A stretch of DNA of 33,084 nt from Thiobacillus sp. (GTDB lineage Bacteria > Pseudomonadota > Gammaproteobacteria > Burkholderiales > Thiobacillaceae), in contig JAIOJU010000088.1 of the NCBI GenBank assembly GCA_019911765.1, positions 1-33,084 of the forward strand, written 5' to 3'. Shown here piece after piece: positions 1 to 13,649 of the stretch; position 1 is the stretch's first letter; each line of letters starts with the position of its first letter. Position numbers and translations under genes: made by a program. The notes under the pieces were generated by a model, which did no database searches, was not told where the DNA came from, and saw only the letters and a program-made list of their open reading frames with translations.

Positions 1-159
1 GGCCGGGGTGATGATGTCGTAGTTTTCACGGCCGAGGTTGTCCACGGCCTTGTCGGCGACACGCCAGGTGGTTGAGGCAACTGCCGAGGCAATTTCTTCG
101 GCGGTTCGTTCGCCATCTTTCTTGAACCAGATAGTGCGGACTCTGACGGGTTTGACCAT
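1..159 (-). CDS. Unknown protein, N-terminal 53 residues (cut by window edge)
   Basis: The ATG lies at 159-157, with a good ribosome-binding site (AGGAG) inside the last codons of the upstream sulfurtransferase gene, so the two are almost certainly cotranslated. The frame is open to the window edge. The visible part begins MVKPVRVRTIWFKKDGERTA and continues with a hydrophilic, alpha-helical-looking stretch; it has no signal peptide, membrane segment or cysteine. I do not recognise the family. Its place as the last visible gene of the minus-strand cluster that starts beside dsrA suggests a role linked to sulfur transfer, but nothing in the residues shows this. Confidence 0.7.
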   Translation of the reverse strand, partial: MVKPVRVRTIWFKKDGERTAEEIASAVASTTWRVADKAVDNLGRENYDIITPA

Positions 160-161
160 GC

Positions 162-1010
162 TTATTCTCCTGTGGCGATGGGGCGGGCGGGATCGCGGAT
201 CCACTCGCTCCACGAGCCGGGATACAGACGCGAACCGGGGAGTCCGGCGATTTCCATCGCCAGAATGTTGTGACAGGCCGTGACGCCGGAACCACACATG
301 TGTAGCACCTGCCAGGCGGGTTTGCCCTTGAGCAATGCCTGGTAGTTTTCGCGCAGCGCCTCGGGCGGCAGAAAAGTGCCGTCCACATCGAGATTTTCAT
401 CAAACGGATAGTTGATGGCACCGGGCACGTGTCCGGCTACCGGGTCGAGTGGCTCAAACTCGCCGGAAAAACGGCGATCAGGGCGTGCATCGATGATGAG
501 CTGCTCGCCTGTGCGGGAGGCGTGCATCACTTCGTCGGCCCCGACGACCTGGGTGGGCTCAGGCAGGCAGGCGCAGGCGGCTTTGTGCGGCGTGGGAATA
601 TCGGCATCGACCGGGTGTTTTTCGCGCAGCCACTTGGGATAGCCGCCATCGAGCAGGGCCACGCCGGGGTGACCGAGCCAACGCATCATCCACCACAGCC
701 GCACGGCCATGGCGCCATAACTGTCGTCATACACCACGACTTGCTTGTTGACACCGATTCCCCATCCGCAGAGCTTTTCGGCCAGCGCGTGCGGGTCGGG
801 CAGTGGATGTCGTCCGGTTGTATCGGTAACGAGAGCCGAGAGGTCTTCGTCCAGGTGAACATAACGGGCGCCCGGAATATGGGCTTTCATGTAAGCCTGC
901 CGACCGGCCTCGGTGTCGGTGAGGGTGAAGCGGCAATCCAGGATGACCCAGTTCGGGTCGTCCAGATGTGCGGCCAGGTCTTCAGTGGTAACGAGCGTAT
1001 TGGAAAACAT
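162..1010 (-). CDS. sseA: Two-domain rhodanese, 3-mercaptopyruvate/thiosulfate sulfurtransferase
   Basis: This 282-residue protein has the two-rhodanese-domain layout and usual length of SseA/thiosulfate sulfurtransferase. The N-terminal inactive domain has the WVILDCRF strand and the HIPGARYVHLDEDLS signature; the C-terminal domain has IIDARPDRRFSGE and GHVPGAINYPF. The active-site loop near residue 239 reads CGSGVTA, the form typical of 3-mercaptopyruvate sulfurtransferases; classical rhodaneses usually carry CRKGVTA. Such enzymes form a cysteine persulfide and pass sulfane sulfur to an acceptor. No signal peptide is seen, so it should be cytoplasmic. It follows a DsrC-like gene and may load that protein or feed the DsrEFH relay (inference). 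The start is the first ATG of the frame; no strong ribosome-binding site precedes it. Family is certain, the symbol and exact donor less so. Confidence 0.85.
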   Translation of the reverse strand: MFSNTLVTTEDLAAHLDDPNWVILDCRFTLTDTEAGRQAYMKAHIPGARYVHLDEDLSALVTDTTGRHPLPDPHALAEKLCGWGIGVNKQVVVYDDSYGAMAVRLWWMMRWLGHPGVALLDGGYPKWLREKHPVDADIPTPHKAACACLPEPTQVVGADEVMHASRTGEQLIIDARPDRRFSGEFEPLDPVAGHVPGAINYPFDENLDVDGTFLPPEALRENYQALLKGKPAWQVLHMCGSGVTACHNILAMEIAGLPGSRLYPGSWSEWIRDPARPIATGE

Positions 1011-1044
1011 GAATGGAGCCTGGAGAGGTCAATTGCAAGTAAGA

Positions 1045-1078
1045 AGCGGGCAGGGTGGCGAGTGCCACACTGCCCGCT
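1045..1078 (-). terminator. Strong stem-loop between the DsrC-like and sulfurtransferase genes
   Basis: Bases 1045-1059 pair with 1064-1078 (14 pairs, one G/A mismatch at 1054/1069) around the tetraloop GAGT. It sits in the 90-nt gap after the DsrC-like gene on the minus strand. There is no long T-run on the exit side, so it may be a partial terminator or an RNA-stabilising 3' end rather than a full stop. Either would let the DsrC-like gene be expressed at a different level from the sulfurtransferase. Confidence 0.55.
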
Positions 1079-1100
1079 CGGCGGGGATGCGCTACCTGGA

Positions 1101-1433
1101 TCAGTAGCCGCCCTTGCCGAAAGGCTTGGGCAGACCGGCAACACGGCAACCCTGGCGGGCGGGCATGTTGGGGAACAGCTCATACAGCGTTTTTTTCCAG
1201 TCCACGCCATCGTGCAGGTCGGTCAGTTCGGCGACCATATTGCGGAAGTTGGGGGTCTGGCCGTCTTCCTTGTACTTCTCGCGCAGGTAATTGATGACTT
1301 GCCAGTGCGCGTCGGTCAGCTTGATACCTTCGGCCTCTGCGATAACCGGGACGATTTCATCGCTGAAATTGGCTTCCAGCAGAAAGTTTTCTTCGCCTGT
1401 TTCCAGTTCTTCGCCGTTCAACATGTACCCCAT
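1101..1433 (-). CDS. DsrC/TusE-family paralogue lacking the C-terminal cysteine
   Basis: This 110-residue protein belongs to the DsrC/TusE fold family: the EGIKLTDAHWQVINYLREKY segment, TLYELFP and the arm RQGCRVAGLPKP are all present. Canonical DsrC carries two arm cysteines, an inner one (CysB) and a penultimate one (CysA) eleven positions later. Here Cys96 is at the inner position, but the CysA position is Lys107 and the tail runs on as GGY. TusE keeps only CysA and the RspA type keeps neither, so this retains the opposite single cysteine to TusE. It cannot form the intramolecular trisulfide of DsrC in the usual way. It could be a sulfur carrier using Cys96, a regulator or an adaptor. A strong AAGGAG site precedes the ATG, and a Cas6-like gene lies 28 nt upstream in the same direction. 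Confidence 0.9.
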   Translation of the reverse strand: MGYMLNGEELETGEENFLLEANFSDEIVPVIAEAEGIKLTDAHWQVINYLREKYKEDGQTPNFRNMVAELTDLHDGVDWKKTLYELFPNMPARQGCRVAGLPKPFGKGGY

Positions 1434-1461
1434 GATTACTACTCCTTTCAGGTTTGGTTTT

Positions 1462-2070
1462 TTAAAGAATCACCGGTGCGACCGGTGCAATGGATTTGTG
1501 CGGGATAAATATCCCGCAGCCTAACAAACGGTTGCGACCCAGACCTTCGTCTTGAATTTGCAGGGATTTGTGCGGCGGCACGTCGTGCAACATCAAGCTA
1601 AAGCCGGTGAGCGGGCCGGACGCGCCTTGCAGCGTCTGCGGCTTGCCGCAGATAAATCCACAGCGCAGTTTGAAGTGCCCGTCCAGTTCACGCATCACAT
1701 CCTGGACGAATTGTTCTTCACTGACGCTGCCCGTGTCAACGAAATGGGCGTAGATGTGGGCGAATGGACTGAACTCACGGGTCTTGAAATTGCCGATCTG
1801 CAGGGTCTGGCCATCCAGGTCCAGTATCTGGCCGATCAGTTGTTGTGCGGCGCTCACCCGTGTTTTGGGTACGCGTATATACAGTTTGGTGCGCCGGTTG
1901 ATGATGAGCGAACTGTCGCCGCTGTTGGTTTCCGCGCCTTTCAGGTGCTGGATGCCGCTGCCCATTTCTTCACCAAGCCATGGCAAGGCTTTCTGCAGGG
2001 CGTCAGACAACATCTGGGCGCTGTCGGCCGGTATGGTCGTGCCGACCAGATCGAACTGCAGGTCGATCAT
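1462..2070 (-). CDS. Cas6-like RAMP protein (Cmx6-type), stand-alone
   Basis: The 202-residue product starting at the ATG at 2070 begins MIDLQFDLVGTTIPADSA and ends with a glycine-rich loop at residues 176-186, GLGRNRLLGCG, followed by IFIPHKSI. This fits the Cas6 signature GhGxxxxxGhG exactly. Overall layout resembles, from memory, the Cas6/Cmx6 family of CRISPR RNA endonucleases, which fold as two ferredoxin-like RAMP domains and bind or cut RNA hairpins. His162, His168 and His191 are candidate catalytic or RNA-contacting residues, but I cannot assign them. No repeat array or other cas gene is in the window. The gene lies between a small unknown gene and a DsrC paralogue, apparently in one operon. 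The frame is open further upstream to 2172, but that would overlap the preceding gene; the chosen ATG has an AGAGGAA about 11 nt before it. Family call is fairly sure; function here is unknown. Confidence 0.75.
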   Translation of the reverse strand: MIDLQFDLVGTTIPADSAQMLSDALQKALPWLGEEMGSGIQHLKGAETNSGDSSLIINRRTKLYIRVPKTRVSAAQQLIGQILDLDGQTLQIGNFKTREFSPFAHIYAHFVDTGSVSEEQFVQDVMRELDGHFKLRCGFICGKPQTLQGASGPLTGFSLMLHDVPPHKSLQIQDEGLGRNRLLGCGIFIPHKSIAPVAPVIL

Positions 2071-2117
2071 GGTAGGCGTGTATTCCTCTGGCTTGTTCTC
2101 TGGCCAGCCTGCCCAAC

Positions 2118-2339
2118 TCAAGATGCGTCTCCTTGATGATCCTTGCCCCATGCCTGCATCAGCGCACCCCACTTCTGGGCGCTGAGAGGGTCCACGTCAA
2201 AAATGGTGAAGCGCTTGTCTTCACGAATACGGACACGTAGAAACGGCACGCCACCCGATTCATGGGTCAGATGTTGAAATTCAATTTCCTGACCGCCAAA
2301 GGGCAGCCGCATTTTGTCTAGAGGCGTAATTTCTGGCAT
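2118..2339 (-). CDS. Small conserved-looking protein of unknown function (73 aa)
   Basis: The start at 2339 (MPEITPLDKMRLPFGGQEIE) has a GAG-containing site in front; an upstream ATG at 2417 would add 26 unconvincing residues. The product is charged and soluble, without cysteines, signal peptide or membrane segment, and looks like a small beta-rich domain (FLRVRIREDKRFTIFDVD) followed by one helix (PLSAQKWGALMQAWG). I do not recognise a function. It is the first gene of the minus-strand cluster, 47 nt ahead of the Cas6-like gene and divergent from dsrA, so it probably works with the Cas6-like and DsrC-like proteins. Confidence 0.65.
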   Translation of the reverse strand: MPEITPLDKMRLPFGGQEIEFQHLTHESGGVPFLRVRIREDKRFTIFDVDPLSAQKWGALMQAWGKDHQGDAS

Positions 2340-2722: not shown

Positions 2723-4024
2723 ATGGCAAAGAAGATGATTGATACGCCCAATCTGGACGAGCTTGAGAAAGGCCCGTGGCCCAGCTTCGTGACCGGACTG
2801 AAGCGTCTGGCTAATGATAACGACATGATGGTTGACCTGATGGGGCAGCTGGAAACGTCCTACCAGCACATGAAGGGTTACTGGAAGGGTGGTACGGTTG
2901 GTGTGTTTGGTTACGGTGGTGGCGTGATCCCCCGTTTCACCGAGCTGAAAGATGAAAATCACCAGCCGCTGTTCCCCGAGGCTGCCGAATTCCACACACT
3001 GCGTATCCAGCCGCCCCCTGGCATGCATTACACCTCCGATCTGCTGCGCAAGATGTGCGACGCCTGGTCGGCAACCGGTGGTTCCGGTCTGATCGCGTTC
3101 CATGGCCAGTCTGGCGACATCATGCTTCAAGGGTGTAAGACTGCTGACGTGCAGCCCGCATTTGATGCGTTCAATGAAATGGGTTTTGACCTTGGCGGCG
3201 CTGGTCCTGCGTTGCGCACCTCGATGTCTTGTGTTGGTGCAGCTCGCTGCGAAATGTCCTGCTTTGATGAGGCCAAGGCACTGCGCACCGTCATCAACAA
3301 CAACATTGATGACATGCACCGCCCGTCCCTGCCCTACAAATTCAAGTTCAAGTTCTCGGGTTGTCCGAATGACTGTGTCAACGCCATTCAGCGTTCCGAC
3401 ATGGCAACCATCGGCACCTGGCGCGACAACATCCGCGTGAACGAAGCTCAGGTTCAGGACTACATGAAGGCTCATGGCATGTCCGATCTGGTCAATGACG
3501 TGGTCAGCAAGTGCCCGACCAAGGCAATCACCCTGGTTGCTGCAGACAAGGTTGTTGCCAGCGACACCGTGTCGGTCGCCAATTTGGGCGACGGCAATGC
3601 CATGTGCATTGACAACAAGAACTGCGTACGTTGCATGCACTGCCTGAACGTGATCCCCGGTGGCCTGCTGCCTGGCGTTGACAAGGGTGTCAGCATCCTG
3701 GTGGGCGGCAAGAGCGTACTGAAAATTGGTGCAACCATGGGTACCGTGGTGATTCCGTTCATGAAGCTCGAGTCCGACGAGGATTTCGAAAAGCTGAACG
3801 AACTGTCACGCAACATCATCGACTTCTTCGCCGAAAACGCGCTGGAGCATGAGCGTACCGGTGAAATGATCGAGCGTATCGGTCTGGCCAACTTCCTCGA
3901 AGGCATGGATATCCCGGTTGATCCTCGCATGATCAGCCAGCCGCGTGCCAACCCCTACTTCCGTTCCGACGATTGGGACGAGCAGGTCGAGAAGTGGAAC
4001 GAGTACAAAGAGTCCGCAGCTTAA
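2723..4024 (+). CDS. dsrA: Reverse dissimilatory sulfite reductase, alpha subunit DsrA
   Basis: DsrA with DsrB forms the cytoplasmic siroheme/[4Fe-4S] enzyme that in sulfur oxidisers converts DsrC-bound sulfur to sulfite. The 433-residue product has the siroheme/cluster pattern C-X5-C at Cys170/Cys176 and C-X3-C at Cys214/Cys218 (FSGCPNDCVN). An inserted ferredoxin domain has Cys264 and Cys295, 301, 304 and 307. The start MAKKMIDTPNLDELEKGPWP is chosen because AGGAGAG lies 6 nt before this ATG; the frame upstream has no family-like sequence. It is the first gene of the operon, and its divergent upstream region carries operator-like repeats. Length and motifs are normal for the family. Confidence 0.98.
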   Translation: MAKKMIDTPNLDELEKGPWPSFVTGLKRLANDNDMMVDLMGQLETSYQHMKGYWKGGTVGVFGYGGGVIPRFTELKDENHQPLFPEAAEFHTLRIQPPPGMHYTSDLLRKMCDAWSATGGSGLIAFHGQSGDIMLQGCKTADVQPAFDAFNEMGFDLGGAGPALRTSMSCVGAARCEMSCFDEAKALRTVINNNIDDMHRPSLPYKFKFKFSGCPNDCVNAIQRSDMATIGTWRDNIRVNEAQVQDYMKAHGMSDLVNDVVSKCPTKAITLVAADKVVASDTVSVANLGDGNAMCIDNKNCVRCMHCLNVIPGGLLPGVDKGVSILVGGKSVLKIGATMGTVVIPFMKLESDEDFEKLNELSRNIIDFFAENALEHERTGEMIERIGLANFLEGMDIPVDPRMISQPRANPYFRSDDWDEQVEKWNEYKESAA

Positions 4025-11667: not shown

Positions 11668-12440
11668 GCGAACACGATACGAAGTCTGAAAAAGAGCCCA
11701 ATTCGCCTGAACGCCGCCGTTTTATTGGTGCAGCCACGGCTGCAGCAGGTTTGGCGATTGCACCGGGCGTGATGTTGTACGAAGTGGCGCATGGCCGTCC
11801 GGAAGAACAGGCTGCCAGCAGCGCGGTGCGCTGGGGCATGCTGGTCGATGCGACACAATGCGCAACCGGTTGCGATGATTGTGTGTCGGCCTGTAGTACC
11901 GAAAACGGCTGGACGCCTGTGGCTGAAAGCAGGCACCCCAAACAGGCACCGCAGTGGATCCGCAAGCTGGAACTGCAGGACCCGCTGACGCAGATGGAAA
12001 CCAACCTGCCGATGATGTGCCAGCATTGCGCAGATGCGCCTTGCGTGGATGTCTGTCCGACGGGCGCATCGTTCAAACGTGCCGATGGCATTGTGCTGGT
12101 TAACCGCCACACCTGCATTGGCTGCCGTTATTGCATGATGGCATGCCCCTACAAGGCGCGCTCGCTGGTGCATGAGTCGCTGAATGATACTCAGCTGGCC
12201 GATGTGCCGCGCGGCATGGGTTGTGTCGAAGCGTGCACCTTGTGCGTACAGAAAATCGATCGTGGCGATGGCAATACCGCGTGTGCCGAAGCGTGTACCG
12301 CTGCCGGCCACAATGCCTTGCTGTTCGGCGACATGAATGATCCTGAGAGCGAGATCTCCAAGCGCCTGCGCGAACTGCCGACCAAGCAGGTTCGTGCCGA
12401 CCTGAATCTCAATCTCGGCGTTCGCTATCACGGAATCTAA
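11664..12440 (+). CDS. dsrO: DsrO, periplasmic iron-sulfur subunit
   Basis: DsrO is the exported ferredoxin-like subunit that links DsrJ and DsrP. The 258-residue product has a twin-arginine signal (ERRRFIGAATAAAG, residues 16-29), consistent with export in folded form. It carries sets of cysteines for several [4Fe-4S] clusters: CATGCDDCVSAC, CQHCADAPCVDVC, CIGCRYCMMAC and CTLC...CAEAC. The ATGA overlap with dsrJ indicates translational coupling. Confidence 0.96.
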   Translation: MSEHDTKSEKEPNSPERRRFIGAATAAAGLAIAPGVMLYEVAHGRPEEQAASSAVRWGMLVDATQCATGCDDCVSACSTENGWTPVAESRHPKQAPQWIRKLELQDPLTQMETNLPMMCQHCADAPCVDVCPTGASFKRADGIVLVNRHTCIGCRYCMMACPYKARSLVHESLNDTQLADVPRGMGCVEACTLCVQKIDRGDGNTACAEACTAAGHNALLFGDMNDPESEISKRLRELPTKQVRADLNLNLGVRYHGI

Positions 12441-12446
12441 ATCAAC

Positions 12447-13649
12447 ATGGCAAGCATTACTTTCCGCGAAGTAGAAGGCAGCAGCCTGAAATACTGGATG
12501 CTGTTCGGGGTCCTCGGCCTGTTCGTGCTGTTTGGCGCACTGGCCTGGAATCATATGCACCACTACGGCCACGTTGTGACCGGCATGGACAACCAGATTG
12601 TCTGGGGCCTGCCGCACGTATTCGCGGTGTTCCTGATTGTGGCCGCGTCGGGTGCGCTGAACGTGGCCTCGATTGCATCGGTTTTCAACAAGCCGATGTA
12701 CAAACCCCTGGCGCCCCTGTCGGCCATCCTGGCGCTGGCCTTGATGCTGGGCGGCTTGCTGGTCCTGGTGCTTGATCTTGGCCGCTCCGACCGGCTGATC
12801 GTTGCCATGACGCATTTCAACTTCAAGTCGATGTTTACCTGGAACGTGTTCCTGTATTCGGGTTTCTTCGGTCTGGTGGGTGCGTACCTGTGGACGATGC
12901 TGGATCGCAACGTCAAGCCCTACTCCAAGACGGCGGGTACGGCTGCGTTTATCTGGCGCTTGATCCTGACGACCGGTACGGGATCCCTCTTTGGCTTTCT
13001 GATTGCGCGTGAGTTGTATGGCACAGCGATGCTGGCACCGATGTTCATCATCATGTCGTTTGCTTATGGCCTGGCCATTTACCTGATGGTCCTGGCCGCA
13101 GCGTACAGCTGGACCGGGCGCACCTTGGGAGACGCAGTCATGATGCGGCTGAAAAGCCTGCTGGCCGTCTTTGTGGCAGCAGTGTTGTACTTTGTTGTCG
13201 TGCACCATATGACCAACCTGTACTTCACCAAGTACCATGCGGTTGAGGCCTTTATTTTGCGCGACGGTGGAATCTTCACCACGCTGTTCTGGGTGGGGCA
13301 GATCCTCATCGGTTGCGTCGCACCGCTGGTGATTTTGCTGAGCAGCCTGGGCAAACAGCGCACATGGATCATGATTGCCTGCGTGTTGATCGTTCTGGGC
13401 GGCATTGCACAGATGTACGTCACGATCATCGGTGCCCAGGCATTTCCGCTGGACATGTTCCCAGGGCTGAAAGAGACAAGCAGCTTCTTTGACGGCGAAG
13501 TGCACAGCTATGCACCCAGCGTGCCTGAGTTCTTCCTGGGCCTGGGTGGCGTAGCAATCGCACTACTGGTGACAACTTTTGCGGTGAAGTTGCTGCGCCT
13601 GCTGCCAGCCAGCCTGGACGACGCGACGGTCGCCAAACTGGAACATTGA
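12447..13649 (+). CDS. dsrP: DsrP, NrfD-family quinone-interacting membrane subunit
   Basis: DsrP is the polytopic NrfD/PsrC-like membrane protein of the complex, exchanging electrons with quinone. The 400-residue product has roughly ten hydrophobic spans (for example YWMLFGVLGLFVLFGALAW, LAVFVAAVLYFVVVHHM, GLGGVAIALLVTTFAVKLL), the usual number for the family. It starts 6 nt after dsrO. A perfect stem-loop follows its stop codon, marking the end of the structural block of the operon. Confidence 0.95.
   Translation: MASITFREVEGSSLKYWMLFGVLGLFVLFGALAWNHMHHYGHVVTGMDNQIVWGLPHVFAVFLIVAASGALNVASIASVFNKPMYKPLAPLSAILALALMLGGLLVLVLDLGRSDRLIVAMTHFNFKSMFTWNVFLYSGFFGLVGAYLWTMLDRNVKPYSKTAGTAAFIWRLILTTGTGSLFGFLIARELYGTAMLAPMFIIMSFAYGLAIYLMVLAAAYSWTGRTLGDAVMMRLKSLLAVFVAAVLYFVVVHHMTNLYFTKYHAVEAFILRDGGIFTTLFWVGQILIGCVAPLVILLSSLGKQRTWIMIACVLIVLGGIAQMYVTIIGAQAFPLDMFPGLKETSSFFDGEVHSYAPSVPEFFLGLGGVAIALLVTTFAVKLLRLLPASLDDATVAKLEH

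Follow-up and report, generated by a model that had tools for sequence, protein, structure and literature searches.

The window analysed here is a stretch of 33,084 nucleotides from Thiobacillus sp. (GenBank assembly GCA_019911765.1, contig JAIOJU010000088.1, positions 1 to 33,084). It comprises the whole of contig C10 of genome G000 (2.86 Mb, 292 contigs, ~94% complete), and its start is a contig end. Five open reading frames, all on the minus strand within positions 1-2339, belong to an operon that is dedicated to the oxidative (reverse) Dsr sulfur pathway in an accessory capacity and encodes, among others, a Cas6/Cmx6-type protein. In the 5' to 3' direction these genes encode a DUF6967 protein (73 residues, 2118-2339), the Cas6/Cmx6-family protein (202 residues, 1462-2070), a DsrC-like protein (110 residues, 1101-1433), a two-domain rhodanese resembling 3-mercaptopyruvate sulfurtransferase (MST; 282 residues, 162-1010) and a protein designated P5 (1-159). 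P5 is cut by the contig end, so that 53 of the ~206 residues expected from relatives are present. The intergenic gaps along the operon are 47, 28, 90 and 2 bases. An AGGAGA site lies inside the end of the rhodanese gene, upstream of the 2-base gap, which fits coupled translation into P5. The divergent neighbor and constant landmark of the module is dsrA (2723-4024, plus strand; TIGR02064, 496.9 bits), and dsrB, dsrE, dsrF and dsrC come after it.

The Cas6-like protein matched PF09559 (E 5e-57, 193.5 bits, cut-off 26.7) and TIGR02807 (205.8 bits, cut-off 98.85) over its full length and above the curated cut-offs, and is thus a member of the Cas6/Cmx6 family of type I-MYXAN CRISPR-Cas systems, with the glycine loop G-G-R-CGIF-P kept. 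With the family profile, a type I-B Cas6 of known structure (PDB 8fcj_B) was matched at E 1.3e-29. The DsrC-like protein (PF04358, E 1.5e-30) belongs by sequence to the same fold family as DsrC and TusE (PF04358, TIGR03342), its best solved match being A. vinosum DsrC (PDB 1yx3). In the rhodanese the PF00581 domain occurs twice (E 2e-28) and the active loop reads CGSGVTA, as in MST/SseA. Unlike SseA, it scores 146 bits against NF008557, below the equivalog cut-off of 250, and is a fixed member of a dsr-linked operon. The first protein of the operon matched PF22295 (DUF6967; E 2.4e-29), whereas no Pfam or NCBIfam family exceeded its cut-off for P5.

The first-pass annotation had described five genes read in one direction with short gaps, divergent from dsrA and translationally coupled at the far end, in which an RNA-binding-type fold was combined with sulfur proteins, and had made this grouping depend on its conservation in relatives. 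The layout given above agrees with that description, and the profile matches to Cas6/Cmx6, DsrC and rhodanese families are consistent with the combination. The genes proved to be conserved together in 79 relative loci, which were gathered by one Cas6-protein scan of genome contigs and whose open reading frames were matched to the window proteins. The same order, opposite dsrA, was found in Thiobacillus, Hydrogenophilus, Sulfuricella, Sulfurimicrobium, Gallionellaceae and other Burkholderiales. Cas6 and the DsrC-like gene were recognized as neighbors in 79 of 79 loci, the DsrC-like gene and the MST-like rhodanese in 76, the rhodanese and P5 in 74, and DUF6967 and Cas6 in 73; several of the missing pairs reflect contig ends.

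Loci selected by Cas6 are unsuited to measuring the association of Cas6 with dsr, and 399 Burkholderiales genomes were therefore searched separately with PF09559 and a dsrB model. Above cut-off, Cas6 was present in 80 genomes and dsrB in 84; 77 had both, and in 75 the two genes were no more than 4.6 kb apart. Two of the three Cas6-positive genomes without a full dsrB have dsrA adjoining Cas6 (L089 and L103). Purifying selection acts on each of the five module genes (median dN/dS 0.07-0.18, compared with 0.09 for dsrA). Over the whole set the module-protein distances track those of dsrA (Mantel r 0.52-0.75, with 0 of 300 permutations as high). The rhodanese distances do not do so within Thiobacillaceae (r 0.02), and for this reason the rhodanese may be exchanged there. 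Given this selection, and gene order and orientation that are repeated in many families, the grouping is more than chance, and the five genes are confirmed as a real, conserved, dsr-linked operon.

In most relatives the operon extends beyond five genes. A TauD/TfdA-type dioxygenase gene follows P5 in 61 of 80 loci, with a gap of 9 bases in Thiobacillus. The presence of this gene in most relatives, together with the intact rhodanese active site, could be taken to mean that the dioxygenase and the rhodanese act on organic sulfur to provide the Dsr pathway with sulfite or persulfide, the other genes being regulatory. We consider such a role in organosulfur utilization quite unlikely, as Sulfuricella-type loci have Cas6, the DsrC-like protein and P5 but no TauD-type gene, and as such a role leaves Cas6, DUF6967 and a DsrC-like protein that has lost its carrier cysteine (below) unexplained.

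The module is the direct divergent neighbor of the oxidative dsr cluster (dsrABEFHCMKLJOPN); unlike that cluster it is lineage-specific, being nearly constant in dsr-bearing Burkholderiales and rare in the remainder of the class. Of 399 Pseudomonadota genomes sampled evenly, 5 contained the Cas6 family, all of them Burkholderiales. Among 276 genomes sampled from the class, 89 had dsrB above cut-off, and the module was seen only in G000, G773 and G815. In G773 (L176), which belongs to another gammaproteobacterial order, only DUF6967, Cas6 and P5 were recognized, separated by gaps of 7 and 2 bases, and the G815 locus (L175) resembles it in having the same three recognizable genes.

Related Cas6 proteins on cyanobacterial plasmids are mostly encoded within full I-MYXAN operons with cas3, cas8, cas7 and cas5. 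On the Gloeobacter morelensis plasmid pGMOR1 (L150, 1974-4546) the stretch read showed a Cas6/Cmx6 gene with no annotated CRISPR neighbors, adjoining a PAPS-reductase-family gene and a cupin gene. Unlike a type I-MYXAN system, the module has none of these four cas genes and no array. Cas7/DevR, the cognate I-MYXAN effector, was found in 0 of the 80 Cas6-positive Burkholderiales genomes. Cas1 was not found in the window genome at its ~94% completeness and was missing from 51 of the 80, some Cas1 being present in the other 29. A simple repeat scan detected no CRISPR array in the window or in 172 loci. Its sole hit, at L185 7287-9098, was a 20-base repeat, GTCGCGAATGAATTCGCTCC, present four times around dsrA and dsrB, with three of the copies spaced ~80 bases apart; this is not an array. 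The family name and the 29 genomes with some Cas1 are what would recommend a CRISPR-Cas remnant, or a Cas6 that processes CRISPR RNA in trans for arrays elsewhere in the genome. That explanation is largely refuted and highly improbable given the absence of Cas7/DevR and of nearby arrays, the lack of Cas1 in most of these genomes, including that of the window, the constant linkage to dsr and the purifying selection. The module is not a CRISPR system, and its Cas6 protein is very probably CRISPR-free and dedicated to dsr.

The dsr-linked Cas6 proteins keep the glycine loop of their family. The C-terminal glycine loop residues Gly-176, Gly-178, Gly-184, Cys-185 and Gly-186 are invariant in the family alignment. 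Across 80 close members there is no variation in the glycine loop, the IPHK end, Arg-60, Arg-66, His-109 or Glu-118; His-191 and Lys-192 are further invariant basic residues. Unlike the CRISPR Cas6 proteins compared, which have neither His-109 nor the PHK motif, the module protein has His-109 and a PHKS end, and in Thiobacillus it has lost an N-terminal histidine. His-109 is variable in the most distant dsr-linked members. In a maximum-likelihood tree a single branch (support 100/99) split 28 dsr-linked Cas6 proteins from 7 cyanobacterial proteins. The tree is unrooted and shows the separation of dsr-linked from CRISPR Cas6 rather than the direction of descent. As the usual role of the family is in CRISPR, we infer that the dsr version was derived from CRISPR Cas6.

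The predicted structure of the DUF6967 protein (mean predicted local distance difference test score, pLDDT, of 90) consists of four strands and one helix in a PUR-like arrangement, that is, a nucleic-acid-binding type of fold. Its resemblance is to the PUR-repeat proteins such as Pur-alpha, from which it differs in being a single repeat of 73 residues with no established sequence relation. DUF6967 also occurs as a stand-alone protein away from dsr (L177-L179), at L177 9847-10158 and L178 9754-9984 near a gene resembling that for ribosomal protein L28 (rpmB). P5, all-helical in relatives, was modeled with six helices (pLDDT 82) and gave no convincing match in the PDB by sequence or by fold.

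The DsrC-like protein differs from DsrC most clearly at its C terminus, GCRVAGLPKPFGKGGY in the window. Where DsrC ends G-C-V, 79 of 80 members have a GKGGY tail lacking the penultimate cysteine, CysA, and the remaining member has an aberrant tail. The second conserved cysteine, CysB, is present in 28 of the 80, including the window protein, and is confined to part of the Thiobacillaceae; the others have Ala, Val, Ser or Pro. In A. vinosum DsrC, sulfur and sulfite are bound by the penultimate cysteine (Cys-111) alone, and DsrC interacts less strongly with DsrEFH when this residue is mutated (PMC3397948). The module protein should not, therefore, carry sulfur or substrate, because its GKGGY tail lacks this sulfur-binding residue (PMC3397948). 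The sulfur-carrier role that the first-pass annotation had given it is consequently not upheld, for it or for its subfamily. We infer instead that it is a regulator or adaptor. In the RspA-type cysteine-free homologues of DsrC both cysteines are absent and the role is regulatory. Most DsrC-like members lack both cysteines as well, although the window protein retains CysB; a search of the open literature found no paper on the RspA type. Six DsrC-family proteins are encoded in the genome as a whole, two by the window (contig C10) and the others by contigs C8, C230, C220 and C63.

The rhodanese active loop reads CGSGVT or CGSGIT in 76 of 77 sequences, and with its two PF00581 domains the protein is a rhodanese. 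An intact rhodanese beside a member of the TusE/DsrC family, with a TauD-type gene in the operon, raises the possibility that RNA is thiolated or otherwise modified. In this view the Cas6-like protein would present tRNA or another RNA to a Tus-like relay of rhodanese and DsrC-like protein, much as TusE serves MnmA, and the dioxygenase would add a further step. This is unlikely: the penultimate cysteine required for sulfur transfer is missing in 79 of 80 DsrC-like proteins and the last has an aberrant tail (PMC3397948), and the module is tied to dsr rather than to tRNA genes.

The module and dsrA share a control region of 383 bases (2340-2722) between DUF6967 and dsrA, in which blocks are kept over 46 Thiobacillaceae regions. 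Palindromes close to CTACCCATATGGGTAG were found in 35 of 71 dsrA-upstream regions from several sulfur-oxidizer families, compared with 1.1 after shuffling. Some Thiobacillaceae have two inverted copies able to form a long hairpin, and an inverted pair of the CTACCC..GGGTAG type, degenerate in the window, lies at 2566-2611. These CTACCCATATGGGTAG-type palindromes look like a transcription factor site, a candidate operator for dsr, the module or both. A CsoR/CstR-type repressor is unlikely to be the protein that binds them in the window genome, as no PF02583 gene was found there at ~94% completeness.

On the minus strand at 2439-2467 the control region carries a leader element, GCAAGCCC-N-GGTTGAAA, which recurs in Thiobacillaceae and occurs once in the window genome. 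Across positions 2439-2490 the leader blocks GTATTAAAATATTG and GCAAGCCC-N-GGTTGAAA are strictly kept in Thiobacillaceae. The element (GGGTTGAAAT) was rejected as a CRISPR-repeat-like sequence on comparison with repeats from six cyanobacterial I-MYXAN arrays; among 12 regions tested only L013 reached p<0.05, and this at a place away from the leader element. The pairs of the leader hairpin are mostly invariant, and the variable pairs covary no better than shuffles (p 0.16). A search of Rfam gave no match.

We propose, tentatively, that the module is an accessory, RNA-based regulator of dsr in which the DsrC-like protein is the adaptor. Action on RNA would come from the Cas6-like and PUR-like proteins, most likely as post-transcriptional regulation of dsr transcripts. 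As an adaptor or decoy, the DsrC-like protein would bind to Dsr partners and signal how the pathway stands; the rhodanese would supply persulfide, and P5 would be a scaffold. The invariant glycine loop and basic residues (Arg-60, Arg-66, His-109, His-191 and Lys-192), the PUR-like DUF6967 and the control region shared with dsrA all point in this direction, as do the conserved gene order, the co-occurrence with dsrB, the lack of Cas7/DevR and the GKGGY tail of the DsrC-like protein. The two leading genes of the operon thus both encode proteins whose folds are of a nucleic-acid type. For RNA binding of any kind by the module we judge the chances to be evenly balanced. The most specific form of the proposal is more doubtful than RNA regulation in general, namely that the Cas6-type and PUR-like proteins together sense and regulate dissimilatory sulfur oxidation by way of RNA, a DsrC paralogue that no longer carries sulfur being the link to sulfur status.

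Several observations weigh against an action on RNA. The median isoelectric point of the dsr-linked Cas6 proteins is 6.7, compared with 9.3-9.6 in CRISPR members (7.2 in a wider dsr-linked set, range 5.3-10.0), a difference that argues against a general surface for RNA binding. At the site of the N-terminal histidine of CRISPR members, the Thiobacillus proteins have Asn or Ser and those of most other families His. Substitution of this putatively catalytic residue could mean that catalysis has been lost in Thiobacillus, although the solved I-B Cas6 (8fcj) also carries Asn at this position. The best PDB matches of the DUF6967 model were to Pur-alpha with a probability of 1.00 but an E value of only 0.07. 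No target RNA emerged as an Rfam match, by supported covariation or by likeness to CRISPR repeats. Three dsr genomes (L183, L184 and L185) have no Cas6, and all three keep DUF6967 and P5; in L184 a TusA-like gene (12364-12852) lies between the two. Since distant members and Cas6-less dsr genomes alike retain them, DUF6967 and P5, usually with Cas6, appear to form the core of the module, the sulfur proteins being variable. It is the loss of charge and the absence of a target RNA that keep our confidence in RNA regulation low.

In a protein-only accessory role, the Cas6-like protein would use its RAMP fold to bind DsrAB, DsrC or P5, and the operon would aid Dsr assembly, cofactor loading or sulfur delivery with no involvement of RNA. 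In favor of such a role, the basic character of Cas6 has been lost, the partners are sulfur proteins (the DsrC-like protein and the rhodanese, and TusA in L184), and P5 and DUF6967 persist where Cas6 is absent. On the other hand, the glycine loop and several basic residues of Cas6 are still invariant, and DUF6967, too, resembles a nucleic-acid-binding fold. We regard a protein-only role as doubtful to about the same degree as RNA regulation, and RNA thiolation as less likely than either because the carrier cysteine is gone.

The first-pass annotation knew of no named system with this combination, and a search of the open literature likewise found no description of the module, nor any mention of Cas6 genes within dsr clusters, although an earlier notice is possible, subscription journals having been mostly outside the search. 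Cas6-family proteins and dsr accessory operons are already known kinds, and a categorically new mechanism is possible. A Cas6-family gene with no CRISPR system of its type, sited in a conserved operon facing dsrA in a large group of sulfur oxidizers, suggests that sulfur metabolism has taken over a defense-type protein; it would be unusual for central energy metabolism to include an RNA-processing protein of CRISPR type. Annotation pipelines label the dsr-linked Cas6, a near-constant companion of dsrAB in environmentally important sulfur oxidizers (Thiobacillus, Sulfuricella, Sulfurimicrobium, Hydrogenophilus and Gallionellaceae), as a CRISPR gene, which hides it. Recognition of a DsrC subfamily that should be unable to carry sulfur helps to tell real DsrC from look-alikes in metagenomes. 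The module provides a concrete place from which to study how the reverse Dsr pathway is controlled. If the proposal is true, an RNA-based sulfur sensor-regulator would be a kind of metabolic RNA regulation without earlier description.

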